DNA from: Rhizobium sp. SG_E_25_P2
GTDB taxonomy: Bacteria; Pseudomonadota; Alphaproteobacteria; Rhizobiales; Rhizobiaceae
NCBI RefSeq assembly: GCF_029892285.1
Contig: NZ_JARXVM010000002.1
Coordinates: forward strand, 186,001 to 250,000
Length of the DNA stretch: 64,000 nucleotides
Reading direction: 5' to 3'
Below the pieces are notes generated by a model. That model was not told where the DNA came from, did not search any database, and was given only the letters and a program-made list of their open reading frames with translations. This document shows, piece by piece, positions 35,366 to 52,472 of this stretch (position 1 is its first letter; each line of letters starts with the position of its first letter). A program made the position numbers and the translations under genes.

Positions 35366-36241
35366 TCATTTTTGTAGGGGGAGGGCGGGGCCGGCGCGTC
35401 CCGTGTTGCCGGTGGCTGACAGATCCGCCCCCATGCGATGGGAAAGCCGGGCCGCCATGCGCGTCACATTGTCGATGATCGCGGTGCGATCGGTCATCGC
35501 GTTCGCATCCAAAGAGAGGCTGACGGCCACGCCCGCAATCGGCCGGTTGCTTCCATCCAGCACGGCTGCGCCATAGCAGACCATGCCTTCGGCGACCTGC
35601 TCCTCATCGCAACTATAGCCGTCCCGCCTGATGTCGCGCAGTTCTCCGAGCAGTTCGTCGATGCTGCGGATGCTGCGAGCCGTTCGCGGTTCTGGCAGGC
35701 CAGGGGCATAAAGCCGACGGATTTCATAGTCGCTCATATGGCTTAGAAACGCCTTGCCCGTGGCGGTGAAAGCGGCGGGCAGGCGCATACCCACCCTGAA
35801 TTCAAGGGAGGAGCGGGCGCGCTCGTTGTTGCGCGCGGCGATATAGACCACCTCCGCCCCGTCCTGCACGGTGAGGGTTATGGTGGCGCCCGGCAAACCG
35901 GTTTCGTGATCCCATATGGCCGCGAATTCGGTCGCGACATCCGATTGCAGCGCAAAGGCGTTCGACCAGCGTATGACATGGGGGCCGAGCTGGAAGGTTT
36001 GGTCGCTGCGCCGGATCAGAAGCTCCAGATTGACCAGTGTTTGGCACAATGAATGCACGCTGGAGCGGGCGATCTTCAATTCCCGAGACAGATCGGACAG
36101 GCTGAGAAAGCTCTTGGAGCGCGCCACCATGTCCAGGATGCGTGCGCCTCGTTCCAGCGCCGGCGATTGCTGAGTCTTGGTTTCCCTTGAAGCCATGAAG
36201 CGATCCGCAAATTCGATGAGCATCATTTTTCTTCTTGACAT
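35366..36241 (-). CDS. IclR family transcriptional regulator (second)
   Basis: A 291-residue IclR regulator: helix-turn-helix (SPALERGARILDMVARS, then RSSVHSLCQTLVNLELL) and effector domain with FRVGMRLPAAFTATGKAF. The start could be 36241, 36226 (ATGATG behind AAGAAG) or 36196; the longest is given. It diverges from the long catabolic/transport operon at 36365-50509. The intergenic region has a perfect inverted repeat (36282-36297), so this regulator is the best candidate to control that operon. Confidence 0.87.
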   Translation of the reverse strand: MSRRKMMLIEFADRFMASRETKTQQSPALERGARILDMVARSKSFLSLSDLSRELKIARSSVHSLCQTLVNLELLIRRSDQTFQLGPHVIRWSNAFALQSDVATEFAAIWDHETGLPGATITLTVQDGAEVVYIAARNNERARSSLEFRVGMRLPAAFTATGKAFLSHMSDYEIRRLYAPGLPEPRTARSIRSIDELLGELRDIRRDGYSCDEEQVAEGMVCYGAAVLDGSNRPIAGVAVSLSLDANAMTDRTAIIDNVTRMAARLSHRMGADLSATGNTGRAGPALPLQK

Positions 36242-36297: not shown

Positions 36298-36364
36298 GTG
36301 TATCGGGATATTGGATGTGTGGCGGCTTTCAAGCCCGCATGCGGTGAAAGTGGAGGTTTCAGGC

Positions 36365-36754: not shown

Positions 36755-36785
36755 AGACGTTCCCACACCTACAGGAATCACCGGA

Positions 36786-37634
36786 ATGGCCAAGCACTCT
36801 CCCGTTATCGGTCGTTACGTCACCATCGAGGTGGACGGTTACGAATACAAGGTTTTCTATCTGAGAAACGGCAGCGGCGTACCACTGGTCTGCCAGCACA
36901 CGGCGGGTTGCCACAATCATCAGTGGCGTGGACTTCTCGAGGATGAAGCGATCACCTCCAACTATGACGTAATCGCCTACGACCTCGCCCGGCATGGCAA
37001 ATCCGATCCGCCGCTCAACAAGGAGTGGTGGAAGGAGGAGTATGTGCTGACCGCGCGGCACTATATGAATTTCATCATCACGCTCTGCGATGCGCTGGAG
37101 CTTGATCGTCCGATCTTCATGGGATCCAGCTTCGGCGGTAATGTGGCCCTGCAGCTTGCCCTTCATCACCCAGACAAGTTTCGCGCTGTGATTCCTGTCG
37201 AGGCGGCCGAACATGCGCCCGGATTCTATCTCGATTGGTGGCGCCATCCGCACGCCAATGCGGCCCAGGTCTGCGCGAGCGGCGTCTGGGATCTCATGGC
37301 GCCGCAAAGCCCGGACATGGATCGCTGGCTGACCTGGCATTATTACACACAGGGTTCGGAAGCCTTCAAAGGCGACCTGTTTTTCTATTCCGTCGACCAT
37401 GATCTCAGGGGCAAACTCGGCAATATCGACACCCGCCGCTGCCCGGTGATCATGATGACCGGCGCCTATGACTATCTCACGCCGCCCGAAGCCACCGAAA
37501 ACACCGCCCGTCAAATCCCGGGCGGCATCTACATCGAAATGGAGGATATCGGCCACTTCCCGATGTCAGAAAACTATCCGCTGTTCGCAGTCTATTTGAA
37601 AGAAGCGCTTCGTCTTATTGAAGCCCGCACCTGA
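36786..37634 (+). CDS. Alpha/beta-hydrolase
   Basis: A 282-residue alpha/beta-fold hydrolase. The nucleophile is Ser115 in the elbow GSSFGG; the catalytic acid is in TGAYDYLTPPEA and His in DIGHFPMSENY, both at usual positions. The oxyanion region reads VCQHTAGCHNHQW. No signal peptide is seen. It is related in role, but not closely in sequence, to the hydrolase at 34371. It is the second gene of the operon, followed 28 bp later by the lactonase-like gene. It probably acts on an ester or lactone handled by the same pathway. Confidence 0.87.
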   Translation: MAKHSPVIGRYVTIEVDGYEYKVFYLRNGSGVPLVCQHTAGCHNHQWRGLLEDEAITSNYDVIAYDLARHGKSDPPLNKEWWKEEYVLTARHYMNFIITLCDALELDRPIFMGSSFGGNVALQLALHHPDKFRAVIPVEAAEHAPGFYLDWWRHPHANAAQVCASGVWDLMAPQSPDMDRWLTWHYYTQGSEAFKGDLFFYSVDHDLRGKLGNIDTRRCPVIMMTGAYDYLTPPEATENTARQIPGGIYIEMEDIGHFPMSENYPLFAVYLKEALRLIEART

Positions 37635-37662
37635 AACCGATTCCGAAAGCGGGAACTGAACC

Positions 37663-38598
37663 ATGAAGATCATTGAATTCGACGACAAGGGCCAGCGCAT
37701 CGAAACCGAGGCTTCTGCGTCTTCGCGCTCCGGGGCCGGTTCCTCGCTGGCGCCGCGCCCGAATTTCTCCCCGGCCCCGAAGGAAGCGTCGCGCTCGCGG
37801 CGCAAGTCTTCGGGGATTGAATTGCATATGTTTCAGACCGGAACGCTGAAAACAAAGACCAAATACATCAAGATGAATCAGGGCGAGGATGCGTTCGAAA
37901 TCCCTGTACCCTGGTTTCTGATCAAGCATCCCCAAGGTAATGTGGTGATCGACGGCGGCAATGCCGTGGAGACGGCGATCGACAAGCGCGGCCATTGGGG
38001 CGCGGTGGTCGACGCTTATGATCCGGTCATGTCCGTCGCCGACAACTGCGTCGACCAGCTGAAGATGGTGGATGTGAGCCCGCAGGACGTGCGCTACGTC
38101 GTGCAGTCGCATCTGCATCTCGATCACACCGGCGCGATCGGACGTTTTCCGAAGGCCCAGCATATCGTCCAGCGCAGCGAATATGAATACGCCTTCAAGC
38201 CGCACTGGTTTTCCGCCGGCGCCTATATCCGCGCCGATTTTGATCGTCCTGGTCTCAATTGGAAATTCCTCGGCGGAGAATACACCGACAATTTCGACCT
38301 GTTTGGCGATGGCGTCGTGCGGATGATCTTTACGCCCGGTCATTCGCCCGGTCACCAGTCCTTCCTGATCACGCTGCCGGAAAGCGGACCGATCCTGCTC
38401 ACGATCGACGCCGCCTATACTGTGGATCATTGGGAAAACCGGGCGCTGCCGGGACTGGTCACCTCATCGACGCAGGCCGTGGACTCGGTCGCCAAACTGC
38501 GCCGCATCGCCCATGACGCCAACGCCATGGTCGTGACGGGCCATGATCCGGTGACCTGGCCTGGTTTCCGAAAGTCCCCCCAGGATTTTTATGACTGA
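37663..38598 (+). CDS. Metallo-beta-lactamase-fold hydrolase, N-acyl-homoserine-lactonase-like
   Basis: A 311-residue metallohydrolase. The two-metal site is complete: SHLHLDH (HxHxDH), then GHSPGH, the bridging Asp in TIDAAY and a late His in TGHDP. This is the AttM/AiiA lactonase pattern. The first 13 residues (KIIEFDDKGQRIE) form a tag followed by a 35-residue Ser/Ala/Pro-rich linker before the catalytic domain starts at about residue 52. The same tag occurs at the C-terminus of the ABC ATPase (41672-41728). Lactone ring opening is likely; a signalling role in quorum quenching is possible but the operon suggests catabolism. Confidence 0.87.
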   Translation: MKIIEFDDKGQRIETEASASSRSGAGSSLAPRPNFSPAPKEASRSRRKSSGIELHMFQTGTLKTKTKYIKMNQGEDAFEIPVPWFLIKHPQGNVVIDGGNAVETAIDKRGHWGAVVDAYDPVMSVADNCVDQLKMVDVSPQDVRYVVQSHLHLDHTGAIGRFPKAQHIVQRSEYEYAFKPHWFSAGAYIRADFDRPGLNWKFLGGEYTDNFDLFGDGVVRMIFTPGHSPGHQSFLITLPESGPILLTIDAAYTVDHWENRALPGLVTSSTQAVDSVAKLRRIAHDANAMVVTGHDPVTWPGFRKSPQDFYD

Positions 38599-38642
38599 TC
38601 GCAGGACGGGATCGTCCGTCTTCAACTAGGAGGAGAGTTGGA

Positions 38643-39809
38643 ATGCTACGAAAATTGATATGCGCGGCGGCGTTGATCGCCACGTCGACGACCATGGCGC
38701 TCGCCGAAGGCGTCGACGAGCTCAACGCCGATGTCGCCAAGCGCCTATACAACAAGGAAATGCTCGATCCCATGCAGCCGATCGGGCCCAGCAAGTGGCG
38801 CGATTTCAAGCCGAAGAAAGGTCCGCCGTGGAAAATCGGCTATGCCTCCTCCTATGCCGGCAACACATGGCGCGCCGCAGCCATGGATGAACTGCAGAAG
38901 GTCATCGTTCCCGAATGGCAGAAGCTCGGTTTGCTTTCGGAAGTGGTGATCACCCAGTCCAATCTCAACGACTCCACCCAGATCCAGCAGATCCGCCAGT
39001 TGGTCGATCAGGGCGCTGACGCCATCATTCTGTGCTGCTCGAACCCGACCGCGCTCAATGCATCGGTGAAATATGCGGCGGACAAGGGCGTTCCGGTCTT
39101 TTCGATGACCGGCTACCTGACCTCCGAATACGCCATCAACTCGTCGGTCAACTATCAGGTCGGCGGCTTTGAGATCGGCAAAGCCATGGCCGATCAGCTC
39201 GGCGGCAAAGGCAATGTCCTCGTCGTCGAAGGCATTCCCGGAACCTCCGGCTCCGACAGTCAGAATCGCGGCGTGCTCGCCGGCCTTGCTTCGGCGCCCG
39301 ACATCAAAGTGGTCGGCTCTGTGGCCGGCATGTGGACCGATCAGGTCGCCCAGGGAGAAGTGCAGAAGTGGCTCGCCACCAATCCCGGCAAGCTCGACGG
39401 CATCGTCGTTCAGTCGGCGGCTGAAATGGGCGTGTTGCGCGCGGTGCAGCAGGCCGGTCGCGGCGAGATCCCGGTCGCCATCGGCGGCGAACTCGGCGCA
39501 CTCTGCTACTGGCGCAAGAACCCCAACTATATCAACGCGTCCTATCAGCTCTGGCCGCCGGCCGACGATATCGAGCTGATGTGGCATATCATGATGCGCA
39601 CATTGCAGGGCCAGGGCCCCAAGGTTCAGTCGATCCTCGTCGATCCGGTGAAGCTGACCCATGAAGACCTGACCAAGGTGATGGACGAGGACTGCAATCT
39701 CGACAGCGCTGAATGGGTGAAGGTCGGCGCCAAGCGTTGGGGTTACGATCCCTCCTATCTGGACGATTTCTTCCTCCGCCCAGCCGATCCCCGCTCCTTC
39801 AAGCCCTGA
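38643..39809 (+). CDS. Sugar-type ABC transporter substrate-binding protein (RbsB-like)
   Basis: A 388-residue periplasmic binding protein of the Peripla_BP_4 group. A Sec signal covers about residues 1-21. The mature domain opens late: about 40 residues (GVDELNADVAKRLY on) precede the usual first strand WKIGYASSYAGNTWRAA. The fold pattern continues with QIRQLVDQGADAIILCCSNP and ALNASVKYAADKGVPVFS. A very good ribosome site (AGGAGGAG) precedes the ATG. It feeds the ATPase and two permeases that follow; the substrate is unknown. Confidence 0.92.
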   Translation: MLRKLICAAALIATSTTMALAEGVDELNADVAKRLYNKEMLDPMQPIGPSKWRDFKPKKGPPWKIGYASSYAGNTWRAAAMDELQKVIVPEWQKLGLLSEVVITQSNLNDSTQIQQIRQLVDQGADAIILCCSNPTALNASVKYAADKGVPVFSMTGYLTSEYAINSSVNYQVGGFEIGKAMADQLGGKGNVLVVEGIPGTSGSDSQNRGVLAGLASAPDIKVVGSVAGMWTDQVAQGEVQKWLATNPGKLDGIVVQSAAEMGVLRAVQQAGRGEIPVAIGGELGALCYWRKNPNYINASYQLWPPADDIELMWHIMMRTLQGQGPKVQSILVDPVKLTHEDLTKVMDEDCNLDSAEWVKVGAKRWGYDPSYLDDFFLRPADPRSFKP

Positions 39810-39919
39810 CCGGCTGAAGGACTGGCCGCGCCTTGATCGGCGCGGCCACATTCAACGTCTCGCCCCTCAGAACCGTCTCCTTGTTTCATCGGCCGCGACC
39901 CGGCCAGATGGGAAGATCC

Positions 39920-41731
39920 ATGACGTCCACTGTTCCAGAAATTGCACAGCCTTCCGGTCGCGAAACCATCCTGGTGCGTGGTGTGAAGAAGTATTTCGGG
40001 CCTACGCGGGCGCTCGATGGCGCTTCCTTTTCCGCCCGCGCCGGTGAGATCCATGCGATCGTCGGCGGCAATGGATGCGGCAAAAGCACCATGGCCAAGG
40101 TCGTATCGGGCATTCTGCCGGTCGACAGCGGCACGGTTTCCATCCTTGGGGAAACGCCGTCCACTCCGGCGGAAAGCCGGGCCCTCGGTATTTCGACCGT
40201 GTATCAGGAAGTGCTGGTCGCGGACGAAAGCTCGGTGGTCGACAATATCTTCATGGGGTCGGACCGGCTTTTCACCAAAACGCTCTCCCAGGAGAGCAAA
40301 GTGGCGCGCGCCGCCGAATTGATGCGGGAACTGTCCGGCGAGCCGGTGGATCCGCATGCTCTCGTGGGAACATTGCCGCTTGGGCTCAAGCAGTGGATCA
40401 CCATTGCCCGGGCGCTGCTGTCCGAACCCAAGATCCTTATTCTGGACGAAAGCTCCGCCGCTCTCGACTTTGACTCCACCGAACGCCTGTTCGCCCGGAT
40501 GCGCGCGCTCAGGGACCGGGGCGCCACCATTCTGATCGTGACCCATCGGATTGCCGAATTGGTGCGCATTTCCGATCGCGCCACCGTATTTCGCGACGGT
40601 CGCGATGTCGGCGTTTTGGACAAGGCCGACATCACCGAAAAGAACTTGCTTCGGCTGATGACGGGAGAAGACCGCTTCGGCAACAGCGCACAGGCCGAAG
40701 CGCCGATGCCCAAGACGACGGAGCGGGCCATGAAAGCGCGCCGGATTGCGTTGTGGCCGGAAGCCCATACATTCGATTTCGATCTTCGTCGCGGCGAAGT
40801 CGTCGGCATCGCCGGTCTGGATGGCCAGGGCCAGGACGCGTTTGTCCGTGTTCTCGCTGGCGTCATGGCCGCTCATCAGGGGCTGGTGCAGGTGGCCGGG
40901 CGCGACGGCGGCTGGGCGCCCGTGCGCGACCTCGCCGAGGCCGTGGCCGGCAAAGTCGCCTATGTCTCGGGCGACCGCAAGCGCGAGGGCATCTTCGCGT
41001 CGCTCTCCATTTTTGAAAACATGGTCATGCCGCTCTATCGCGAGAAGAAACGCGGCGGCGTTCTCGGCTTCATCGATCGCGGCACGCTGACCACGATCTT
41101 CAAGCGGGAGGCGGAAAACCTGCTGATCAAATTCGGCGTGAAAGAGGACCGCATCACCTCGCTGTCGGGCGGAAACCAGCAGAAAGTGCTGATTGGCCGC
41201 GGTTTCGCTATGCGGCCGGATGTGATCATCCTCAACGATCCGGCCCGGGGCATTGATGTCGGTGCGAAGTCCGAACTCTACCGGCATCTGCGCAACTATG
41301 CGGAAGAGGGCAGGGCAGTCGTCTACCTGTCCTCGGAAATCGAAGAATTCCTGGGATTTGCCACACGCGTGATCGTCTTCCGCGATGGAGCGCCGTTCGA
41401 CGCGTTTGACGGCCGGGGTCTCGAGCCGAAAAAGGTGCTGGAGGCCATGTTCGGCCACACAGACGGCCAAGGCCTGGCATCGCCCGGCCACGGGCTGCGT
41501 CCCGGTCTTGCACACGCGGCCGGCGCGTCCGGTCCAGCAACTGAAAAGGTCCCGGCCGATGGGCTGCGCATCCGCGTCGATGTGCCTGCGCATCTGAAGC
41601 CGCTTGCGACGGCAGCGCCGTCCGCGACGGCAATCGACGCGTCGCCCCTATCGCCGAGCCCGGCCAGGAAACGAATTCGCATCGTTGAATTTGATGAAAA
41701 CGGCGCGCGTATCGAAAGGGGGCGGCCATGA
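39920..41731 (+). CDS. Sugar-type ABC transporter ATPase (RbsA/MglA-like) with C-terminal tag
   Basis: A 603-residue two-domain ATPase; relatives have about 500. Domain one: Walker A GGNGCGKST, a divergent signature LPLGLKQWITIARAL and Walker B ILILDESSAALD. Domain two: signature LSGGNQQKVLIGRG and Walker B VIILNDPARGID. After domain two (about residue 515) about 90 extra residues follow: an Ala/Pro/Gly-rich linker and a terminal KRIRIVEFDENGARIE tag (from 41672), nearly the same as the lactonase N-terminus. Start chosen at 39920; in-frame starts at 39908 and 39833 exist. Its TGA overlaps the first permease ATG. Confidence 0.9.
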   Translation: MTSTVPEIAQPSGRETILVRGVKKYFGPTRALDGASFSARAGEIHAIVGGNGCGKSTMAKVVSGILPVDSGTVSILGETPSTPAESRALGISTVYQEVLVADESSVVDNIFMGSDRLFTKTLSQESKVARAAELMRELSGEPVDPHALVGTLPLGLKQWITIARALLSEPKILILDESSAALDFDSTERLFARMRALRDRGATILIVTHRIAELVRISDRATVFRDGRDVGVLDKADITEKNLLRLMTGEDRFGNSAQAEAPMPKTTERAMKARRIALWPEAHTFDFDLRRGEVVGIAGLDGQGQDAFVRVLAGVMAAHQGLVQVAGRDGGWAPVRDLAEAVAGKVAYVSGDRKREGIFASLSIFENMVMPLYREKKRGGVLGFIDRGTLTTIFKREAENLLIKFGVKEDRITSLSGGNQQKVLIGRGFAMRPDVIILNDPARGIDVGAKSELYRHLRNYAEEGRAVVYLSSEIEEFLGFATRVIVFRDGAPFDAFDGRGLEPKKVLEAMFGHTDGQGLASPGHGLRPGLAHAAGASGPATEKVPADGLRIRVDVPAHLKPLATAAPSATAIDASPLSPSPARKRIRIVEFDENGARIERGRP

Positions 41732-43122
41732 CGCTTGCTGTCAGTCAATCTTCCGGCAAAGCGGGCGCTCCGGCGGATCTCCAGGGCGGGCGCTCCAATC
41801 CCTTCCTCCTGATGCCGATCACGCTGTTTTTTGCGCTGCTGTCGATTGCGGTGTTGAGGACGCCCAGTCTGATGACCGCTTCGGGCATCGGGGCCGCCGT
41901 CATCGTCGTGACGCCGTTGATTCTGGCCACCTATACGCTGATGGCCTCCACCATTTCGGGTCGCGGCACGGTCGACCTGTCCGTCGGGCCGCTGATCGGC
42001 TTCATCAACGTCACGATGATCCAGCTGCATGGCGCGGGCTTGTTGGAAAATCCCATCGCCGTGTTTCTGTATTGCATGGCTGTCGGCGCCGTTTATCAGT
42101 TCCTCTTCGCGCTGATCGTCATCTATGTCCGCGTCCAGCCGATCATCGTGTCGCTGTCCGGATATCTGGCGCTTTCGGGCATCAACCTCGTCATCCTGCC
42201 GCGGCCTGGCGGCATGGCGCCCCCCTTCATGGCGGAATGGGGTTATGGAACCACGATCTTTTCGCCCGTGCTGATCATTCTCATCGTCGCAACGGTTGCC
42301 TGGCTGCTGTTCACCGTGACCGCCTTTTACACGCATTTGCGTCTGATGGGCTCGGACGAGCGCGCAGCCTATACGTCCGGCGTGCCGATCACCGTGGTCC
42401 GCATCGGCGCGCATCTGATTTCCGGTTGCTTTGCGGGGCTTGCCGCCATCTGTTTCACGGCGCTGATTTCATCGGGCGACCCTTCGCAGGGCGCCACCTA
42501 TACGCTGATCGCCGTCACCGCGCTGGTGCTCGGCGGCGCTTCCCTCGGCGGCGGGCGCGGCGGCGTGTTCGGTTCTGCGCTCGGCGCGCTCAACCTCTAC
42601 ATGATCACCTATGTCCTCTCGACCTTCAATTTCGGCGCGGTGCAGAGCTTCGTCACCAATTTGGCCTATGGCGCGATCCTGGTGATTTCGCTGCTCCTGA
42701 CATTGCTGATCCCGGTCATCCAGCGACATTTCCGTAATTTTTCGCCGCTGCTTTATTTCGTGGCGCTGTCCGTGGTGGTGCTGGGCGTCATTCTACATGC
42801 GACCTTCGACTATGCGAGCCTGGGTGCGGCCCCCGCCTATATGCCGGGTCCGATGGACATCAAGGCGGCGATGACCGGCGCGCTCGAGGTCGCATCGCTC
42901 TCGCCTGAAACGGTCGCGCTGCGCCTGGGCGCGGCGCAGTCCGTCTTCTTCGTCATTGTGCTTGTGTTCATCGCCGTCTTCTTGCGGCTGGCCGTCAACC
43001 AGTCCTCCCGCAACAGTCTCGGACCGGCGGTCGCCGTCATCGTTGCGGCGCTTGTCCTCGGCGGCGCCTGGATTGTCCACGAGACCGCCCTTTCCAGCAA
43101 TATGACGGAGGCCGTCAACTGA
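41728..43122 (+). CDS. RbsC-like ABC permease with C-terminal membrane extension
   Basis: A 464-residue permease; single-domain relatives have about 320-340. The BPD_transp_2 core spans about residues 25-330 (LATYTLMASTISGRGTVDLSVG, of which STISGRGTVDLSVG is the family mark, and VTALVLGGASLGGGRGGVFG). A further 110-130 residues carry about two or three extra helices (LLYFVALSVVVLGVIL, SVFFVIVLVFIAVFL and AVIVAALVLGGAW). Start and stop overlap the neighbouring genes. It forms the channel with the next permease, which carries an extension at the opposite end. Confidence 0.9.
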   Translation: MTLAVSQSSGKAGAPADLQGGRSNPFLLMPITLFFALLSIAVLRTPSLMTASGIGAAVIVVTPLILATYTLMASTISGRGTVDLSVGPLIGFINVTMIQLHGAGLLENPIAVFLYCMAVGAVYQFLFALIVIYVRVQPIIVSLSGYLALSGINLVILPRPGGMAPPFMAEWGYGTTIFSPVLIILIVATVAWLLFTVTAFYTHLRLMGSDERAAYTSGVPITVVRIGAHLISGCFAGLAAICFTALISSGDPSQGATYTLIAVTALVLGGASLGGGRGGVFGSALGALNLYMITYVLSTFNFGAVQSFVTNLAYGAILVISLLLTLLIPVIQRHFRNFSPLLYFVALSVVVLGVILHATFDYASLGAAPAYMPGPMDIKAAMTGALEVASLSPETVALRLGAAQSVFFVIVLVFIAVFLRLAVNQSSRNSLGPAVAVIVAALVLGGAWIVHETALSSNMTEAVN

Positions 43123-44483
43123 TGGAGAAGCTGCCGCAAATCAGCCTTCCGGCTCAAATTCTCGGCCTGGCGATCGCCCTGCTGCTGGCCGGCTTGGGCG
43201 CCGGCTTCGGCTTTGCCCAGGGTATGGCGGTGCAGGTCGTCATCCTCTCGGCAATCGCCACGCTCGCGCTGTTTGTCTGGGCCTGGCGCTATATCATTGG
43301 CCAATTCGCGAGCGGCGAGACTGCTTCGGCCGAAGGGCCAGGTCAGCTCCAGCTCGCCTGGATGCAGTATCGCTGGCCGCTGATCGGCCTGGTCCTGGTT
43401 CTCGCCGCCTTCCTTCTGTTGTCGGTCGCCATCGAGGGTTTCTTCAATATCTGGAACGTCATTTCGCTGGTGATCCTTCTGGCGATTCTGGTGCTGACGC
43501 GCACGCTCGGCCGGCAGTTCCAGCAAAACCGGTCGGCCTTCATCGGCATCATGGTGCTGGCGGGACTGTTTTCCGTGGGCTCGATGAACATCGAGGGCTT
43601 TTCTTCCGGCAACAACATCAAGTCGATGCTGCTGTTCGCTTCCTTTCTTGGCATAGCCTCGATCGGTCAGACGCTGGTGGCGCTGCTCGGCGGACTGGAT
43701 CTGTCGATCCCGTTTATTATCGGCGGGGCCAATGTGGGACTTCTCTATCTGATCGGACTCGGCGTGCCGCCATGGCTAGCGACACTGATCGTGCTGGCGA
43801 TCGGAGCGGGTCTGGGCGTGATCAATGGACTGTTGAGCTATCGCCTGCAGGGCCAGGCGCTGATCGTCACGCTGGGCATGGGCTTCGCCATTTCAGGCGG
43901 CGTCCAGATCGTCACCTCTATCGGCTCGGCCTATTCCGGCAATGTCTTCGGCACGGTTCCGGCCTGGCTGTCGAATATCTCGGCCATGAACGGCTCCACT
44001 TTCGGGTTGCCGTTCCCGCCGGTCATCCTGATCTGGGCGGTCGTCACGCTCGTGTTGATCATCGGCCTGCGAACGACGGTCTATGGCCGCTATCTCTACG
44101 CGCTCGGCGTCAACAGGACATCGGCCAGCCGGGTGATGATCTCGGAGATGCGCTACTGGGTGATCACATACGCGCTGTCCGGCTTCTTCGCCGCGCTGAC
44201 CGGCGGGTTGCTGCTTGGCTGGTCCGGCGGCGGGTTCATCGGGGTGGGAGACCAGTATCTATTTCTCACGCTCGCAGCCGTGGTGGTCGGCGGAACGTCG
44301 CTGCTCGGCGGAGCGGGCGGCTATGGTTTCACGGTCATCGGCGTGCTGGTTTTGCAAGTGCTGTCGAGCTTCCTGGTCGGCATAGGCCTCGATTTCAAAT
44401 GGCAGCAGTTCATTTTCGGCCTGCTCATCCTGCCCATGGTGGCCCTCTATGCCCGGTCGCCGCACATCCGGACGCAGATCTAG
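43122..44483 (+). CDS. RbsC-like ABC permease with N-terminal membrane extension
   Basis: A 453-residue permease. The first about 130 residues hold extra helices (ILGLAIALLLAGLGAGFGFA, VVILSAIATLALFVWAW, LIGLVLVLAAFLLLSVAI). The BPD_transp_2 core follows, with SIGQTLVALLGGLDLSIPFIIG-type sequence (LLGGLDLSIPF is the family mark), RTTVYGRYLYALGVNRTSA and VVVGGTSLLGGAG. It starts at the stop of the previous permease gene. AGGGAG and AAGGAG sites follow its stop, leading into the rhodopsin-like gene 49 bp later. Confidence 0.9.
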   Translation: MEKLPQISLPAQILGLAIALLLAGLGAGFGFAQGMAVQVVILSAIATLALFVWAWRYIIGQFASGETASAEGPGQLQLAWMQYRWPLIGLVLVLAAFLLLSVAIEGFFNIWNVISLVILLAILVLTRTLGRQFQQNRSAFIGIMVLAGLFSVGSMNIEGFSSGNNIKSMLLFASFLGIASIGQTLVALLGGLDLSIPFIIGGANVGLLYLIGLGVPPWLATLIVLAIGAGLGVINGLLSYRLQGQALIVTLGMGFAISGGVQIVTSIGSAYSGNVFGTVPAWLSNISAMNGSTFGLPFPPVILIWAVVTLVLIIGLRTTVYGRYLYALGVNRTSASRVMISEMRYWVITYALSGFFAALTGGLLLGWSGGGFIGVGDQYLFLTLAAVVVGGTSLLGGAGGYGFTVIGVLVLQVLSSFLVGIGLDFKWQQFIFGLLILPMVALYARSPHIRTQI

Positions 44484-44531
44484 GGAGAACCCAATGCGAC
44501 ATGACTTTGTCCTTCAAAGGAGACGATAAAC

Positions 44532-45233
44532 ATGGTGGTCTATCAGACAACCGATCTGACTGCGGCAAGCTTCTCCGTCGCCTTGTTCGGCCTGGCCGCG
44601 ACCACGGCGCTTCTGCTCATGGGCACGGCATGGGTCGGTCAGAAATGGCGTTTGCCGGTGGCGCTCTGCGCGATTGCGGCGTTGATCGGCGTTGGTTCGA
44701 TCTATGAGGCGCGGGCGGCCTGGCTAGCCGGTCACGGCGTGCCGGTGGTCTATCACTATGTCGGCTGGGCGGTGTCCATGCCGTTGCAGGTGATCGCGCT
44801 GTTCTTTGTCGTGGGCGCCGCCGGCGCGCTTTCCGTCGGACTGTTCTGGCGGATGGCGATCGTTTCGGCTCTCATGGTGTTCGTCCGCTATTTGGGCGAG
44901 GCGCAGTTCATGCATCCGACGCTCGCCTTCCTGATCGGGTTGGTGTTCTGGCTTTACCTGCTCGGCGAATTCTATTTCGGCCGAATGGACGACGTGGTCC
45001 GCGCCTCGACGGGCGACGAGCTGCGCCGCGGATATTTCTGGCTGAGGCTGATCGTGACGATCGGCTGGGCCATCTATCCGCTCGGAAATTTCCTTACCGC
45101 CTTTGCTGGCGTTGCCGACGACGGCAGCCTGTCGGTTGCCTACAACGTCGCCGACATCCTCAACCGCATGGCGTTTGGCGTTGCAGTCCTTGCGACGGCA
45201 ATCCTCGCGACCGGGAGAAGCACCCATGCCTGA
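44532..45233 (+). CDS. Microbial-rhodopsin-like seven-helix protein lacking the retinal lysine
   Basis: A 233-residue seven-helix membrane protein. By alignment from memory it follows proteorhodopsin throughout: KW in the A-B loop region, PVVYHYVGWAVSMPLQ (helix C, FRYIDWLLTVPL in proteorhodopsin), RYLGEAQFMHPTLAFLIG, GWAIYPLGNF (helix F) and YNVADILNRMAFG (helix G, YNLADFVNKILFG). The Schiff-base lysine (K231) is Arg212 (codon CGC at 45165-45167). Also changed: R94 to His75, counter-ion D97 to Gly78, T101 to Ser82, donor E108 to Ala89; D227 is kept as Asp208. It cannot bind retinal covalently in the usual way. AAGGAGA precedes the ATG. The function is unknown. Confidence 0.82.
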   Translation: MVVYQTTDLTAASFSVALFGLAATTALLLMGTAWVGQKWRLPVALCAIAALIGVGSIYEARAAWLAGHGVPVVYHYVGWAVSMPLQVIALFFVVGAAGALSVGLFWRMAIVSALMVFVRYLGEAQFMHPTLAFLIGLVFWLYLLGEFYFGRMDDVVRASTGDELRRGYFWLRLIVTIGWAIYPLGNFLTAFAGVADDGSLSVAYNVADILNRMAFGVAVLATAILATGRSTHA

Positions 45234-45281
45234 ATTCCGCCCCTTGCCTGAAACCCCTGCTCATTCAAAAGGAATACGTCC

Positions 45282-46946
45282 ATGAAGGGTGCAGACGTTA
45301 TCGCCATCATCATTCTGGCGGCCATTGTCATCGCGGTCGCCGCCTATCTTCTGCACTGGCTCTATCGCCGTTCCACCAAGGATGTGAGCTTCGTTCGCAC
45401 AGGTTTCGGCGGCGAAAAAGTCGTCATGGGCGGCGGCGCGCTGGTGTTGCCCATCCTGCATGATCTCACCGAAGTGAATATGAACACGCTGCGCCTGGAA
45501 GTCACCCGAGCGCGGGAGAAGTCGTTGATCACCAAAGACCGCATGCGGGTCGAGTTGACCGTGGAATTCTATGTCCGCGTTGCGCCGCACACCGAAGCTG
45601 TCGCCACGGCCGCCCGCAGCCTGGGCAACCGGACGATGAACGCCGAACAGTTGAAGGACCTGATCCAGGGACGTTTTGTCGACGCCATGGGCGGCGCGGC
45701 CGCCAAGATGACGCTGGAGCATATCCACGAAAATCGCCAGGCCTTCGTGAAGGAAGTGAAGCAGGAAGTCGCCGAGAGCTTGGCGCTTGATGGTCTCGAA
45801 CTCGAATCCGTTTCGCTGACCTCGCTCGACCAGACCGACATCAAGCTTTTCGATCCGTCCAACACCTTCGACGCGGAGGGTCTGACGCATCTGACCGAGC
45901 AAATCGAAAGCCGCAAGAAGAAGCGCAATGACATCGAGAAGGATACCGCCGTCGCTATTCGCGCCAAGAATCTGGAAGCCGAAAAGCGCAGTCTCGAAAT
46001 CGAGCGCGACAGCGAATACGCCCGCCTCTCGCACGAGGCCCAGGTGGCCATCGAGCGCGCCGCGAAGAAGTCGGAGATCGCGGCCGAGAATGCGCTGCGG
46101 GAACGCGAGATTGAAGCCGTCAAGCTCAAGGAGCGGGAATCCGTCGAGCGCAGCCGTATCGATATGGAACGCGAAGTCGAGATGCTGGAAATCCGTCGTC
46201 GCGAGACCATTGAACTTGGGGAGCAGGGTCGCGAAATCGCTTTGTCGCTAAAATCCAAGGAGCGCTCCGAAGCGCAGGCGCAAGCCGAGCAGGCGCGCGC
46301 AACCATGGTTGAGGCCCAGGAGCGCGTCCAGACGATCCGCGACACCGAGATCGCCAATCGCCAGAAGGCCATCGAGCTCATCGAGGCCGAACGGACAGCG
46401 GAAGCGGAGGCCGCGCGCATCCGCATTCTCGCGGAAGCCGAGAAGGACGCGGCGCAGGATCGAGCCGACGCCGATCGCATATCGCTCGCTGCGCTCGAGC
46501 AACGCATGACGGTGGAGGCCGAGGGCAAGGAAAAGCTCAACGCCGCCGAAAACATGCGCTCGGACGCCAGCCGCCGCTCGGCGTTGCACAAGGTCCTTGT
46601 CGAAAACCTGCCCGCCATCATCCGCGAAAGCGTCAAGCCGATGGAGAAGATCGAGGGCATCAAGATCATGCATGTCGAGGGTCTTCCGGGACTCTCCCAG
46701 ACCGGTCCCGGCGCTTTATCGGCGGGCGTCGATGGCGGGGCTCCGCGCGACGGCAATCTTGCGGAACAGGTGGTCAGCTCCGCTCTGCGCTATCGCACGC
46801 AGGCGCCCTTCGTCGACACGCTGCTCGGCGAGATCGGTCTGACCACCGAAACCATTCACCGTCCGCATACGCTGAGCGACCTTTCCAAGGTTGTCTACAC
46901 CGAACCCTCGGCGGCTGCGGCAACGGACAAAAGCCGTCCGAACTGA
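45282..46946 (+). CDS. SPFH/Band-7 (flotillin-like) membrane protein
   Basis: A 554-residue scaffold-type protein of the flotillin/YqiK group. One N-terminal membrane helix covers about residues 6-28 (VIAIIILAAIVIAVAAYLL). The SPFH domain follows (about 35-200: VLPILHDLTEVNMNTLRLEV, LTVEFYVRV). A long charged coiled coil (about 205-430) is rich in Glu, Ala, Arg and ends in a C-terminal domain of about 120 residues. Flotillins organise membrane microdomains and often gather transport and signalling proteins. Here the gene lies 48 bp after the rhodopsin-like gene in a transporter operon. No NfeD-type partner, common beside flotillin genes, is seen. Confidence 0.88.
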   Translation: MKGADVIAIIILAAIVIAVAAYLLHWLYRRSTKDVSFVRTGFGGEKVVMGGGALVLPILHDLTEVNMNTLRLEVTRAREKSLITKDRMRVELTVEFYVRVAPHTEAVATAARSLGNRTMNAEQLKDLIQGRFVDAMGGAAAKMTLEHIHENRQAFVKEVKQEVAESLALDGLELESVSLTSLDQTDIKLFDPSNTFDAEGLTHLTEQIESRKKKRNDIEKDTAVAIRAKNLEAEKRSLEIERDSEYARLSHEAQVAIERAAKKSEIAAENALREREIEAVKLKERESVERSRIDMEREVEMLEIRRRETIELGEQGREIALSLKSKERSEAQAQAEQARATMVEAQERVQTIRDTEIANRQKAIELIEAERTAEAEAARIRILAEAEKDAAQDRADADRISLAALEQRMTVEAEGKEKLNAAENMRSDASRRSALHKVLVENLPAIIRESVKPMEKIEGIKIMHVEGLPGLSQTGPGALSAGVDGGAPRDGNLAEQVVSSALRYRTQAPFVDTLLGEIGLTTETIHRPHTLSDLSKVVYTEPSAAAATDKSRPN

Positions 46947-46955
46947 CACGACAAT

Positions 46956-46979
46956 GCCTGCCGGGCGCGCCCGGCAGGC
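46956..46979 (+). other. GC-rich palindrome between the SPFH gene and the small membrane protein gene
   Basis: A perfect 24-base palindrome that folds into a 10-bp stem with a CGCG loop, 10 bp past the SPFH stop. No T-run follows, so it is more likely an mRNA-processing or partial attenuation hairpin than a full terminator. Confidence 0.55.
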
Positions 46980-47012
46980 CACCTTCGCCCTTAGGATTGG
47001 CTAGGAAGACGC

Positions 47013-47444
47013 ATGATGATCGCAAACAGGCCCCACATCGAGCGCACGATCCTGATCTTCGCGATCTGGGGCGTACTCGGCTTTCTCGGACTCGGCGTGT
47101 TTCTCGAGGGCATGAAGAGCGACCTCTGGCCGCTGTCGTCGGCGGGCGTGCTGCTGATCGTTTTCGCTTTCGTCGCCCATATCATCGTCAACGGGATCTT
47201 CAAGGCGGAGTTCAGCCCCGGCGAAGCCGCGCTCGGCATTGGCGTCTATGGAATCCTGGGCCTTGTTTTCATCGTTTCCGCCGCCACCGGCGGCTTGACG
47301 ATGGCGGATTACTATTCGGGCCTTACGCTGTTCGGCGTGCTCGCGGTCGGTTTCCTGGCCTATCTGTTCACGCGGCATGGCCTGCGCGGCGCCTTTTCTC
47401 GCTTTCACATCAAGTCAATTGGCGCGCAGGAGGAGAGCCTGTGA
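47013..47444 (+). CDS. Small four-helix membrane protein, function unknown
   Basis: A 143-residue protein with four predicted membrane helices (ILIFAIWGVLGFLGLGVFL, LSSAGVLLIVFAFVAHIIV, EAALGIGVYGILGLVFIVS, YYSGLTLFGVLAVGFLAYLF). I do not recognise a family. Its stop codon overlaps the GTG start of the symporter gene, so translation is coupled. Some sodium:solute symporters are paired with a small membrane subunit encoded just upstream (DUF4212-type), but this protein is longer and not obviously of that family. A matching role as symporter partner is inferred from position. Confidence 0.75.
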   Translation: MMIANRPHIERTILIFAIWGVLGFLGLGVFLEGMKSDLWPLSSAGVLLIVFAFVAHIIVNGIFKAEFSPGEAALGIGVYGILGLVFIVSAATGGLTMADYYSGLTLFGVLAVGFLAYLFTRHGLRGAFSRFHIKSIGAQEESL

Positions 47445-49357
47445 TCTGGCTGCCGCTGTTTGGACTTTGCTACGCCGCCGCGACGCTCTACTGGGCCCGG
47501 CTCGGCGCGCGCGTCAATGCCGGCGACAGGGCATTCTTCACCGCCGGGGAGGGTTTTTCGCCCTGGATATCGGCGTTGATGATCGCGGGCGCCAGCCTAT
47601 CCGGTTGGGTTGCGCTTGCGGGGACGGAAGAAATCGGCCGCCACGGTTTCGGGCTCGCCGCCATGCTGCAGGCGGGGATTGCGCTTGCGCTTCCCGGCGT
47701 CGTCTTCTTCAAGCGCGTCTGGCTGCTCGGGCGGCGCTTGCGCGTCTCGTCGCTGGCGGAATTGATCCGCGTCTATTGGCAGTCGGAGTTCCTGACCGCG
47801 TTTGCGGCCATCGTCGCTGTTCTGTTCGCGGTCGCATTCGCCGGCCTGCAGATGCACGCCCTGTCGCGCCTTATGGTGCTGCTCGGCGGCGGCGTCGTTT
47901 CGCAGGAGATTGCTTCGGTCCTGCTCGGTCTGTTGTTGATGGGCAGCGTCGTGATCGGCGGCCTGCGCGCCACAGGCTATCTGGGGGCCATTCAGGCCGT
48001 GCTGGCGGCCGCGGCCCTCGTGGTTCTTGCGGTTTTTTCACTGATCGACGCAGGCGGATTCGGCGCCCTCAACGCCGGCCTTGCCAAAATGGCGGCTGAT
48101 CCGGCGACGGCGAACCGATTTATCGTCGCAGGCGTCGTTCAGTTCATCGCGGGCGTCGGCAAGCAAGCGGCGGCGGGACATGGGGCCACGGCGCTCGCAA
48201 ACCTATCCTTCGCCATGGCGCTGATGGGTCTGCAAGCGAGCCCGATGATCATCAAGGCGGTGTTGTCCACATCCAGCGCTCGCGGGTTCGCCGCCGGGCA
48301 GACATGGCTGATGGCCGGAGCCTTCGGCGCGCTCGCGGCGTTTTGCATGGCCGTCATCGGCGCTCACGCGCTCGTTGACCCTGCGCTTGACCTCACAGGA
48401 CTGATGTCGGCGCTGTCACCGTGGTTTTCGGCCTGGCTGTTCATCAGCCTTCTCGCTGGCGTGCAGCTGATGTCCGGACTGGCGCTTCTGGCGGCTGGAG
48501 AGACGTTGGTGCGCAATATCTACAAGCCGGTTTTCCATGCAAGCCTGTCGCAACGCGACACCGTGACCCTGACACGGGTGGTCATTGGCCTGTTGTTGCT
48601 CGCCAGCGTGCTGATGCAGGCGTTGACGCCTGTCGCTCTTTCGCTTTTGGCTTCCCTGGCGTTGCCGCTGTCATTCCAGCTCTGGACCCCGCTGCTCGGC
48701 ATGACCTGGTTGCGCTGGATGACCCGGGCCGGCGCCGCTACCGGCGTGGGTTTCGGCATGGCGGGCGTGCTCCTGACGGAACCTGCGGGCAATATCGTCC
48801 TGTCCTTTTTTGGACTTGATCTGCCATGGGGCCGCAATCCATGGACCATTCATTCGGCAGTCTGGGGCATGGTCGCCAATATCATTGTCGCCATGCTGGT
48901 CTCCGCGTTCACGCAGCGTCGGGGCTTGGGGGAGGCGGGCGAGGAGGCGCGGCGGTTTCTTCTCTTGCAATTCGGCGGCAATCCGCGTGTGCGGGCGCTG
49001 CGCTCCACAGCCTGGTCGGTCACACTCGCCTGGTTGTTCCTGGCCCTCGGTCCCGGCTTGATCTTCGGCAACCACGCCTTCACCGACATCAATGGTCAAT
49101 GGACGCTCGGCATGCCGTCGCTCTGGGCCTGGTCCGTGATGCTCTGGGTGGCCGGCGTCGGTGTCGTGTGGTTCCTGTCCTACAAGATGGAAATGGCGAG
49201 CCCTCCGACGATCGAGGCGCAAGCTTATACGCCGCGCCCTCAACTGATTCAGCCTCGCGTCGAGGCCGAGCTTGCTCGCCGCCGCGCGGTCATCATCGCC
49301 ATCGCCATCGGTTGCAGCCTTGCGGTCATCGCGGCGCTGTCCTTCGGCGATGTCTGA
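47441..49357 (+). CDS. Sodium:solute symporter family protein (SSS), GTG start
   Basis: A 638-residue secondary transporter with about 13 membrane helices. Family features are FTAGEGFSPWISALMIAGASLSGW near the N-terminus (FTAGEGF and the SLSGW turn), RLRVSSLAELIRVYW, LMGLQASPMIIKAVLSTSSA-type helix 8-9 sequence (LQASPMIIKAVLS) and WTPLLGMTWLRWMTRAGA. The GTG at 47441 lies behind GGAGGAG and overlaps the stop of the small membrane gene. An open frame extends upstream to 46997 but covers that gene and is rejected. The substrate is unknown. It is a second transporter in the same operon as the ABC importer. Confidence 0.87.
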   Translation: MIWLPLFGLCYAAATLYWARLGARVNAGDRAFFTAGEGFSPWISALMIAGASLSGWVALAGTEEIGRHGFGLAAMLQAGIALALPGVVFFKRVWLLGRRLRVSSLAELIRVYWQSEFLTAFAAIVAVLFAVAFAGLQMHALSRLMVLLGGGVVSQEIASVLLGLLLMGSVVIGGLRATGYLGAIQAVLAAAALVVLAVFSLIDAGGFGALNAGLAKMAADPATANRFIVAGVVQFIAGVGKQAAAGHGATALANLSFAMALMGLQASPMIIKAVLSTSSARGFAAGQTWLMAGAFGALAAFCMAVIGAHALVDPALDLTGLMSALSPWFSAWLFISLLAGVQLMSGLALLAAGETLVRNIYKPVFHASLSQRDTVTLTRVVIGLLLLASVLMQALTPVALSLLASLALPLSFQLWTPLLGMTWLRWMTRAGAATGVGFGMAGVLLTEPAGNIVLSFFGLDLPWGRNPWTIHSAVWGMVANIIVAMLVSAFTQRRGLGEAGEEARRFLLLQFGGNPRVRALRSTAWSVTLAWLFLALGPGLIFGNHAFTDINGQWTLGMPSLWAWSVMLWVAGVGVVWFLSYKMEMASPPTIEAQAYTPRPQLIQPRVEAELARRRAVIIAIAIGCSLAVIAALSFGDV

Positions 49358-49384
49358 CATTGTGTTGACAAAAGGAAATTCGAG

Positions 49385-50509
49385 ATGAAAGCCAGGATTG
49401 CTCTGCTGAGGTCCATGGGCGCCGCGCGTCCTTATCAGGACTCAAAACCGCTCGAAATCGTCGAGGTGGATCTGGACGAACCGGGCGCGGGAGAAGTCAG
49501 GGTGAAAATGGCTGCGGCCGGTCTCTGCCATTCCGATCTTTCGGTGATCAATGGCGATAGACCGAGAGACATGCCGGTGGCGCTCGGCCACGAAGCCTCC
49601 GGCGTCATCGAAGCCATCGGCCCGGGCGTCTCGCGTTTTGCCCCTGGCGATCACGTGGTTCTGGTATTCGTGCCGTCCTGCGGCCACTGCGTGCCCTGCG
49701 CGTCAGGCCGGCCGGCGCTTTGCGAGCCGGGAGCCGCGGCTGCGGCCAGGGGAACTCTGATCGGCGGCGCCCGGCGCCTGCGCTACAAGGGAGAACTGGT
49801 CAACCACCATATCGGTGTTTCCGCCTTTTCGACCCATGCGGTGGTGTCTGAAAATTCCTGCGTGAAGATTGATAAATCCATCCCGTTGGATCGTGCGGCG
49901 CTGCTGGGATGCGCGGTGCTGACCGGCGTCGGCGCGGTGCTGAATTCCGGGGAACTGAGGATGGGGCAAAGCTGCGCGGTGATCGGGCTTGGCGGCGTCG
50001 GGCTCGCAGGCCTGCTCGGCGCGATCGCGGCGGGCGCCGAAACCGTGATCGCTGTCGATACCGCTGAAAACAAACGCGCTTTTGCGCTCGAGCTTGGCGC
50101 GACGCATGCGATTGATCCGATGTCGGAAAACGCGGTGGCGGAGGTCAAGAACTTGACCGGCGGCGGCGTCGATCTGGCGGTGGAATTGGCCGGCGCCGCG
50201 CCGGCGCTGAAATTCGCCTATGACATCACCCGTCGTGGCGGAACCACGGTAACCGGCGGACTTCCCAATCCCAAGGCCGAGTTCAACATCCCGGCCGTGT
50301 CGCTGACTGTCGGCGAGCAAACGCTGAAGGGATCCTATGTCGGCTCGTGCGTGCCAGTGCGCGATATTCCGCGCTTCGCCGCCATGATGCAGTCAGGTCG
50401 CCTGCCGATCGAGAAATTGATGACGCACACGATCTCGTTGGAAGACATCAACGAGGGATTCGAGCGTCTCGCTTCGGGCGAGGCCATCCGCCAGGTCGTT
50501 CTGTTTTGA
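49385..50509 (+). CDS. Zinc-dependent alcohol dehydrogenase, MDR family
   Basis: A 374-residue NAD(P)-dependent alcohol dehydrogenase. Catalytic zinc ligands are in GLCHSD and GHEASG. The structural-zinc lobe is complete (CGHCVPCASGRPALC). The coenzyme fold has IGLGGVGLAG and IAVDTAENKRAFA, where the Asp after the second strand suggests NAD preference. The pattern matches class III-like or benzyl-alcohol-type dehydrogenases. It is the last gene of the operon, 27 bp behind the symporter. It could oxidise an alcohol released by the hydrolases. GAAATTCGAG before the ATG is a weak ribosome site. Confidence 0.9.
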   Translation: MKARIALLRSMGAARPYQDSKPLEIVEVDLDEPGAGEVRVKMAAAGLCHSDLSVINGDRPRDMPVALGHEASGVIEAIGPGVSRFAPGDHVVLVFVPSCGHCVPCASGRPALCEPGAAAAARGTLIGGARRLRYKGELVNHHIGVSAFSTHAVVSENSCVKIDKSIPLDRAALLGCAVLTGVGAVLNSGELRMGQSCAVIGLGGVGLAGLLGAIAAGAETVIAVDTAENKRAFALELGATHAIDPMSENAVAEVKNLTGGGVDLAVELAGAAPALKFAYDITRRGGTTVTGGLPNPKAEFNIPAVSLTVGEQTLKGSYVGSCVPVRDIPRFAAMMQSGRLPIEKLMTHTISLEDINEGFERLASGEAIRQVVLF

Positions 50510-50519
50510 GTGTATTTGC

Positions 50520-50551
50520 CCTATCCGTCTGGCCGGAGCCGGGCGGATAGG
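50520..50551 (+). terminator. Hairpin after the alcohol dehydrogenase gene
   Basis: An 8-bp outer stem (CCTATCCG with its complement) and an inner 5-bp stem form a stable hairpin 10 bp past the stop codon. No T-run follows, so termination is plausible but not proven. Confidence 0.5.
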
Positions 50552-50673
50552 CTTGGCGGATCTGACAAAACGACGTGTCCCGGCCACAGTCCGCGACACG
50601 TTTGCCCGATCTTCGGCGTCGTCAGGCGGGCTCACGCGGAGGCTGTTGGTGCTTCCGCGCGGCTTTGCCGAGC

Positions 50674-51762: not shown

Positions 51763-52073
51763 GTCGGGTCTCCGGTTTGAGCTTGATGTCACACCCCTTC
51801 ACATGAGCGGTTCCCGTATCGAGAATAAGTCCCCGCATCTCGCTTGAAGTTATTTACGCGGTCGATCAATTATGTGGCGGACAATGGTCCCTGTCGATCA
51901 AACGTCTTGCCGACGCCGGCTGAGAAAACATCGCAGCTGTCGCAGACAGGCTCGACCTGCCACTCATGTCCTGCATCGATAGGGGTTTGTCTGCCGGAGA
52001 CCTCATTTTCTGCGCGTTCATGTGGCATTCTGTGTCGATCGCACGACGCACTGAATGCAAAAGGGAGACGCAG
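51763..52073. other. Divergent intergenic region
   Basis: 311 bp separate the start of the Tat-exported hydrolase (minus) from the start of the cupin gene (plus). It should hold both promoters and any shared operator. I see no convincing reading frame, RNA or clear palindrome in it. Confidence 0.6.
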
Positions 52074-52472
52074 ATGGAAATTCGAAGAGCTGGTAGCCAG
52101 GCATCCGTCAAAGGGCCCTCTGACTGGTTCACCGGCACAGTCAGGATCGATCCCCTTTTCCCAGTCCGGGAACCGGCTGCTGCAGCAGGCAACGCCGTCA
52201 CCTTCGAGCCGGGTGCGCGGACAGCATGGCACACGCATCCTTTGGGGCAGATCATCATTGTCATCTCGGGCGTTGGACGCGCGCAGCGGCAGGGCGGGCC
52301 GGTTGAAGAGATCCGCCCCGGCGATGTCGTGTGGTTTGAACCGGGAGAAAAACACTGGCACGGCGCGTCCCCCGCGACCGCGATGGCGCATATCGCCATT
52401 CAGGAGAGTCTGGACGGAAAGGCGGTCGACTGGCTGGAGCAGGTCAGCGACGCCGACTATTCCGCGTCATGA
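52074..52472 (+). CDS. Cupin domain protein
   Basis: A 132-residue single-domain cupin. The first metal-binding motif is HTHPLGQ with the following IIIVISGVG, and the second motif is [16 protein letters not shown]. The pattern resembles the (R)-mandelonitrile-lyase-like and carboxymuconolactone-associated cupins. The ATG at 52074 follows AAGGGAG; an in-frame ATG at 51966 lacks a site. No cofactor or substrate can be assigned. Divergent from the Tat-exported hydrolase gene. Confidence 0.85.

Follow-up and report, generated by a model that had tools for sequence, protein, structure and literature searches.

A seven-helix membrane protein encoded in a transporter operon of Rhizobium sp. SG_E_25_P2 is a flotillin-associated rhodopsin (FArhodopsin; Haro-Moreno et al. 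2023, PMC10308929) without the retinal-binding lysine. Its co-occurrence with extended ABC permeases and with enzymes that share a peptide tag leads us to favor, at a probability of roughly 0.55, a role as a membrane subunit, working without light, in an uptake and hydrolysis complex scaffolded by flotillin. The gene lies in a window of 64,000 nt, the whole stretch of DNA analyzed, to which the coordinates in Table 1 refer.

The opsin frame opens with ATG behind an AAAGGAG stretch and encodes 233 residues with no internal stop. The Pfam Bac_rhodopsin profile matches it at 2e-17 (63.9 bits against a cut-off of 24.6) over positions 3–222 of 224, in agreement with the full-length seven-helix rhodopsin homolog proposed from the sequence-only reading, and both the profile search and the structure prediction which that reading had suggested as checks place the protein in the type-1 rhodopsin family. 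Its AlphaFold2 model (pLDDT 88.5, pTM 0.86) is matched best in Foldseek by 9r21 (TM 0.95, 1.5 Å), an entry for a flotillin-associated rhodopsin that is also the best PDB sequence match (8.2e-37), followed by 9r23 and proteorhodopsins. This protein, PsFAR (9r21, 9r23), is ~32% identical to the opsin but, in the part of its description available, differs in possessing the lysine and in carrying Glu120 where the opsin has Arg119. In helix G of the opsin, the Schiff-base lysine on which retinal binding depends is replaced by Arg212. Alignment with lysine-bearing relatives bore out every other substitution listed beforehand (in the proteorhodopsin numbers of the sequence-only reading, Arg94 to His75, Asp97 to Gly78, Thr101 to Ser82 and Glu108 to Ala89), together with the retention of Asp227 as Asp208; the residues at the proton-pump positions Asp97, Glu108 and Arg94 are accordingly Gly78, Ala89 and His75.

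Table 1 Features of the opsin operon and its surroundings (positions in the window)
Feature	Position	Strand	Remark
IclR-type regulator, divergent from operon, upstream	35366..36241	-	
Alpha/beta hydrolase	36786..37634	+	80–84% identical to marine and Kiloniellaceae-type copies
AttM-family lactonase (metallo-beta-lactamase fold), 52-residue N-terminal extension	37663..38598	+	NF045700
Tag MKIIEFDDKG at lactonase N-terminus	37663..37692	+	
Sugar-type periplasmic binding protein (Peripla_BP_4)	38643..39809	+	
ABC ATPase, two nucleotide-binding domains and long C-terminal tail	39908..41731	+	
Tag IRIVEFDENG near ATPase C-terminus	41675..41704	+	
ABC permease P1, 464 aa	41728..43122	+	
P1 C-terminal hydrophobic extension, ~residues 330–464	42715..43119	+	absent from rhodopsin-less homologs
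ABC permease P2, 453 aa	43122..44483	+	
P2 N-terminal hydrophobic extension, ~residues 1–130	43122..43511	+	absent from rhodopsin-less homologs
Lysine-less FArhodopsin, 233 aa, seven helices, Arg212 at Schiff-base lysine site	44532..45233	+	ORF, Pfam, tree, model
Arg119 codon, helix-D pocket site	44886..44888	+	aligns with Glu120 of PsFAR
Arg212 codon cgc, retinal-lysine site	45165..45167	+	
Flotillin (Flot and Band_7), 554 aa, next gene downstream of opsin	45282..46946	+	PF15975 1.3e-33
Small membrane protein, 143 aa, overlaps SSF gene by 4 bp	47013..47444	+	
Sodium:solute symporter-like protein	47441..49357	+	weak SSF match, 2.9e-06
Zinc alcohol dehydrogenase, last co-directional gene	49385..50509	+	

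Phylogenetic placement was evaluated in a tree of 59 opsin rows with the lysine column masked and 15 proteorhodopsin rows as outgroup. Arg-type opsins, which include the present one, and Leu-type opsins group together (100/100) and join the lysine-type FArhodopsins (marine DNI types and 9r21) against the proteorhodopsins (99/92). The opsin is thus a lysine-less FArhodopsin by its clade, and a flotillin gene adjoins it on the same strand. The DTT, DTL or DNI motif given for FArhodopsins (PMC10308929), of which the DNI form occurs in the FArhodopsins of small marine genomes (family f33, 1.4 Mb), is absent and replaced by Gly78/Ser82/Ala89. In the best tree the Leu types branch from within the Arg types, with two changes; a tree constraining the Arg types as one clade was not rejected (p-AU 0.27), and the Leu branch is so long (2.76) that its placement is unsure. 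Loss of the lysine beside a flotillin, even to arginine, is already known in this family, because FArhodopsins reported from freshwater metagenomes, likewise next to flotillins, have Gln, Thr, Leu or Arg at this position (PMC10308929). As far as the available part of that publication describes them, those proteins share with ours the clade, the neighboring flotillin and the existence of lysine-less members; the present proteins differ in that their hosts are cultured, mostly terrestrial and devoid of a proteorhodopsin, and in that the opsin carries Gly78, Ser82, Ala89 and Arg119 in place of the motif. The Rh-noK proteins of betaproteobacteria, as cited in PMC10308929, are likewise bacterial rhodopsins without lysine, but are xanthorhodopsin-related and encoded in tandem with a working rhodopsin, of which there is none here.

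To assess how general the arginine is, we took the best 80 of 558 confirmed relatives of the opsin from a scan of genome contigs. All 23 relatives at 56–90% identity (L002–L024) carry Arg, and the remaining 57 (at most 38% identical) carry Lys. One of the latter, L030, is the FArhodopsin of a Kiloniellaceae metagenome-assembled genome; among the other 56 loci, eight of them shorter than 9 kb, a flotillin match was found in 0/56, and the 13 that were placed in the tree group with proteorhodopsins. Of 394 Rhizobiaceae genomes, 28 contain a relative, either close (24 genomes, 66–100% identical, all Arg) or distant (four genomes, 41–45%, all Leu). After removal of eight duplicates between collections, and with one further locus (L153) counted in, Arg occupies the site in 40/40 genomes read and in 39/39 distinct clade sequences, from Rhizobiaceae, Devosiaceae, Lichenihabitantaceae, Roseobacteraceae, Paracoccaceae and Stappiaceae. 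It had been anticipated that lysine-bearing orthologs in the same operon would reduce the arginine to a local mutation. Such orthologs do exist in operons of this type (Kiloniellaceae-like and small marine genomes), yet the local-mutant explanation fails since Arg is invariant throughout the clade of the present opsin, in several families.

The gene is under purifying selection, with dN/dS between 0.012 and 0.124 in the 15 pairs that could be measured among 16 tried (the sequences of one pair did not differ, and dS was saturated in one). The opsin frame remains open, with no stop inside, in all 28 Rhizobiaceae matches, and 78 positions are invariant or invariant in all but one of the 39 distinct sequences. 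Loss of every pump residue is what a decaying relic would display, but selection, intact frames and conserved positions together exclude such decay as far as sequence can, and we give it almost no weight.

An assisting role beside a proteorhodopsin, as proposed for FArhodopsins (PMC10308929), cannot hold in these Rhizobiales genomes, because the opsin is their sole rhodopsin. PF01036 returned one rhodopsin over the cut-off in the genome under study (99.5% complete) and one in every genome of a further 28 from Rhizobiales (24 with the Arg type, 4 with the Leu type; five of the 28 less than 90% complete), so that no proteorhodopsin accompanies it in any of them. It also returned one in each of three lysine-type genomes (family f68) and two in 4/5 marine genomes. 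The BCD-type profile PF15461 exceeded its cut-off in those four marine genomes only (0/31 others), and the best match in our genome scored 15.4 bits against a cut-off of 28. The fifth marine genome (G806, 94% complete) has a FArhodopsin with neither a second rhodopsin nor a BCD gene, which may reflect incompleteness. A sole-rhodopsin, lysine-less FArhodopsin without a BCD gene in cultured rhizobia and relatives was not found in the literature searched.

Retinal supply by other routes was considered for the genome under study. It contains two full-length genes of the carotenoid-oxygenase family, which count against a simple claim that no retinal is made; their best solved relatives are lignostilbene-type dioxygenases, and we judge retinal from this source unlikely. 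The lycopene-cyclase profile gave 13 matches, three over the cut-off, but these cover only the first 30–130 of 380 positions and the same search matches in all 14 control genomes, so they were dismissed and are taken as a shared nucleotide-binding motif. These results bear on whether the opsin could still sense light with retinal or another carotenoid derivative bound non-covalently. The aromatic pocket residues are kept, and carotenoids can attach to the surface of such a fold (rhodopsins with bound zeaxanthin are among the Foldseek matches). We nevertheless regard this as very unlikely, given that lysine and counter-ion are each lost in 39/39 sequences and the donor in nearly all rows, that Arg119 occupies the site of PsFAR Glu120, a residue changed in entry 9r23, that the Rhizobiales genomes tested yielded no BCD gene, that the lycopene-cyclase matches are short and N-terminal, and that both oxygenases are of lignostilbene type by their best solved relatives.

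Comparison of pocket positions, which for Arg119, Glu123, Arg212 and Asp208 rests on alignment, suggests that the retinal pocket is rebuilt rather than lost, because Arg119 is invariant and the aromatics are kept. Arg119 is present in 39/39 distinct Arg-type and 4/4 Leu-type rows, at a site that is Gly in 56/56 proteorhodopsin rows and Ala or Gly in 8/8 lysine-type FArhodopsin rows; the aligned PsFAR Glu120 is one of the two residues changed in 9r23 (H84V/E120G). Tyr76, Trp79, Trp179, Tyr182 and Pro183 are kept in 49/49 Arg-type rows, a set that includes duplicates of the 40 genomes and, being defined by Arg212, is informative on other positions only. A pocket of this kind could belong to a ligand-gated receptor, in which a carboxylate (substrate, lipid or fatty acid) would be held by an Arg212 salt bridge in place of the lysine and the opsin would switch the importer or the flotillin on. 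Besides the retained aromatics, two precedents speak for it: retinal-free proteoopsin binds decanoate with the carboxylate salt-bridged to the retinal lysine (PMC11322631), and its structure, 8cnk, ranks third in Foldseek for the opsin model; and haloarchaeal opsin-related proteins, type-1 opsins with the lysine changed to Arg (group A) or to Leu or another hydrophobic residue (group B), reportedly do not bind retinal in the canonical way and have been put forward as sensors (PMC4915679). Group A adjoins chemotaxis transducers according to the available part of that report, whereas the present opsin sits in an importer–flotillin operon and on the proteorhodopsin side of the family. No adjacent chemotaxis transducer was found among the scanned operon genes (34371 to 52472), which match other families, and Arg119 and Arg212 may merely pair with Glu123 and Asp208; a gated receptor therefore appears improbable to us, though it deserves more weight than the other alternatives to the favored role that are weighed in this text.

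The opsin is the seventh of eleven co-directional genes (36786–50509) in the order alpha/beta hydrolase, lactonase, binding protein, ATPase, P1, P2, opsin, flotillin, small membrane protein, sodium:solute symporter (SSF) and alcohol dehydrogenase. Gaps are at most 66 bp, or genes overlap slightly, with the exception of ~98 bp before the ATPase if its start is the ATG at 39908, which we chose (the longest frame begins with TTG at 39833). The opsin gene is separated by 48 bp on each side from its neighbors, the P2 permease gene upstream and the SPFH gene downstream, the position recognized in the sequence-only reading, and the SPFH protein is a flotillin. A scan for promoters and terminators returned nothing beyond what shuffled sequences give. 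The lactonase is a predicted AttM enzyme (NF045700, 434.5 bits, over the equivalog cut-off of 390), and the solved lactonase 9kho matches it from residue 53 onward; Pfam gave no significant match to the small membrane protein. Binding protein, two-domain ATPase and permeases match the families of CUT2/RbsABC-type sugar importers but score far below the NCBIfam equivalog cut-offs, and the permease extensions and tagged ATPase tail set this importer apart. A second ABC importer of another type lies at 25519–30218 on the minus strand (Bmp-family binding protein, ATPase and permease); its permease is related to a putative B6 transporter model, below the cut-off.

These neighbors are constant around Arg-type opsins. 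P2, opsin, flotillin, small membrane protein and SSF occur together in 23/23 of L002–L024, which answers the question of whether orthologs share the ABC and SPFH neighbors; binding protein, ATPase and P1 are present in 21/23 (the other two are contig ends), the lactonase in 19/21 readable loci (L023 and L024 lack it within the locus), the hydrolase in 20/21 (once on the opposite strand) and the zinc alcohol dehydrogenase in only 8/23. Importer, flotillin and alpha/beta hydrolase are common to Arg-type and lysine-type marine clusters, the latter at 53–57% identity for P2, ~50% for P1, 52–55% for the ATPase, 49% for the binding protein, 41–42% for the flotillin and 80–81% for the hydrolase, which shows the highest conservation in the cluster. 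P2 was found in 40/52 genomes of the marine family, and the four Leu-type loci also have the importer, with a less similar hydrolase (41–44%). One marine cluster (L129) additionally contains LamB/YcsF, biotin carboxylase and N,N-dimethylformamidase-like genes (2966–3748, 3748–5247 and 15653–18004), a hint at lactam or amide substrates there. The published FArhodopsin cluster includes an inner membrane translocator and a sodium symporter (PMC10308929); in the available part of that publication the importer is not presented as a partner, and permease extensions and a shared tag go unmentioned.

Both permeases are enlarged, P2 at its N-terminus and P1 at its C-terminus, each by ~130 residues that include hydrophobic segments according to a simple hydropathy count. 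Among rhodopsin-bearing loci with P2, duplicates included, the extension is present in 83/86, the other three (L008, L017 and L099, a duplicate of L017) being cut by contig ends; in L014 it sits in a second piece, with a frameshift. None of ten rhodopsin-less loci (eight genomes) has it, their matches starting at residues 121–152, and P1 measures 314–348 aa in rhodopsin-less loci versus at least 445 aa in each rhodopsin-bearing locus measurable whole. Across the 394 Rhizobiaceae genomes an extended P2 occurs in 27, all among the 28 with an opsin; in the remaining one (G385) P2 runs into a contig end. With at most four candidates per genome, the other P2 matches listed start at residue 121 or later, nine of them at 55–61% identity. 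Rhodopsin-bearing rows form one group in a tree of permease cores (85/94, not starred), so a single event may have united opsin, flotillin and extensions, in which case the correlation would not be repeated evidence. The P2 structure model was too poor for use (pLDDT 50.5). In lysine-type clusters P1 reaches 757–801 aa as a mechanical ORF (L129, 5257–7527; L030, 4064–6466), with ~300 further hydrophobic residues past the permease domain and no Pfam match to them. Close rhodopsin-less relatives of the importer (L152, L134 and a second P2 copy in genome G178, C8:50900-51853; P2 55–61% identical) lack a flotillin; in L152 a hydrolase relative (39%) lies beside the importer, and another P2 relative (G783:C1:237320-238386) is split in two, its second part containing four stop codons.

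The ATPase and the lactonase share a short peptide tag, each linked to its core by a long variable stretch. The pattern [KR][IV][IV]EF lies 16–25 residues from the ATPase C-terminus in 38/38 readable Arg-type operons, and MK[IV][IV]EF opens the lactonase in 36/36 (L008 and L017, at contig ends, are missing from both counts, and L023 and L024, without lactonase, from the second); shuffled ATPase tails and lactonase heads contain the tag at frequencies of 0.0003 and 0.0002, respectively. Of 90 matches in 52 FArhodopsin loci (908,011 residues), 84 fall by the ATPase or lactonase, three in a repeat ORF of L030 and three elsewhere (L024, L103 and L118, by chance), versus 0 in 25 proteorhodopsin loci (146,771 residues). 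Kiloniellaceae-type clusters encode between ATPase and P1 a separate ORF of 115–123 codons with five copies or variants of the tag (4/4: L030, 3602–3973, and L131–L133), and their ATPase tails contain the variants IKIVETD and IKIVDFD. Marine ATPase tails contain VVDF variants (3/3 readable), and the biotin-carboxylase-like neighbor of marine clusters has a C-terminal KIVETD (4/4). Rhodopsin-less ATPases have tails of 3–21 aa and no tag (3/3 read). Not every such operon needs the tag, because Leu-type operons lack it (0/4); in its place, their ATPase is fused at the C-terminus to a phosphatidylethanolamine-binding-type domain (PF01161; 4/4, L117–L120; for example L118, 3286–5541).

These patterns also bear on whether the opsin serves as a flotillin partner in lipid or microdomain organization, the importer being a mere passenger of the operon. 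Flotillin adjoins every FArhodopsin locus examined, the published name rests on it, and the domain on Leu-type ATPases is of lipid-binding type; permease extensions, ATPase tails and hydrolase conservation nevertheless track the opsin as closely as flotillin does, and we consider a passenger importer distinctly unlikely. Of the interpretation given in the sequence-only reading, a lysine-less type-1 rhodopsin in a transporter operon, the description stands, and its suggestion of an accessory transporter subunit gains support from the permease extensions and shared tags.

Given co-occurrence with the importer, we propose that the opsin, no longer photoreceptor or pump, would act as a constitutive seven-helix membrane subunit of an uptake assembly, in which the ABC importer (binding protein, ATPase and two permeases with extra helices) and the opsin would be held in a flotillin-organized patch; flotillin patches are described as organizing transport and secretion in other bacteria. 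The opsin may pack against the flotillin or the additional helices of the permeases, and its old retinal pocket, rebuilt around Arg119 and Arg212, could be a pure structural core or could hold a small acidic ligand. The same tag on the ATPase C-tail and the lactonase N-tail would dock on a common partner and so place a hydrolase next to the channel exit, a recruitment for which the lipid-binding domain would substitute in Leu types. Because the operon contains two hydrolases, the lactonase and the alpha/beta hydrolase, the transported substrate is probably, as a guess, a lactone, ester or similar carboxylate precursor. A bolder and more doubtful version is a peptide-tagged uptake metabolon, with blind opsin and flotillin as hub, permease extensions as docking helices and enzymes recruited by one tag of the form (K/R)(I/V)(I/V)(E/D)(F/T), its cargo comprising the ATPase tail, the lactonase head and the marine biotin carboxylase tail; the five-tag protein of lysine-type clusters would then be a dedicated linker.

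Literature searches returned no report combining rhodopsin, flotillin and rhizobia, none from 2022 onward that joins lysine, rhodopsin, flotillin and ABC transporter, and none of a Rhizobiaceae rhodopsin in the context of lysine, retinal or proteorhodopsin, supplementary tables and subscription papers lying outside the scope of all three. Lysine loss itself was known; the tagged-importer context is unexpected. FArhodopsins are described as widespread in marine and fresh waters, with the proteorhodopsin-helper role as the published proposal (PMC10308929), and the present findings shift attention from light to uptake in explaining their function. Since the opsin is the sole rhodopsin in cultured hosts, which include Rhizobium terricola, Gellertiella hungarica, Ciceribacter selenitireducens and Hoeflea alexandrii, FArhodopsin function becomes testable by ordinary gene deletion. 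If the tag is a docking signal, it would represent a new bacterial way of gathering enzymes at a membrane importer, and the metabolon, if true, would amount to a bacterial tag-and-scaffold system with a former photoreceptor at its base.
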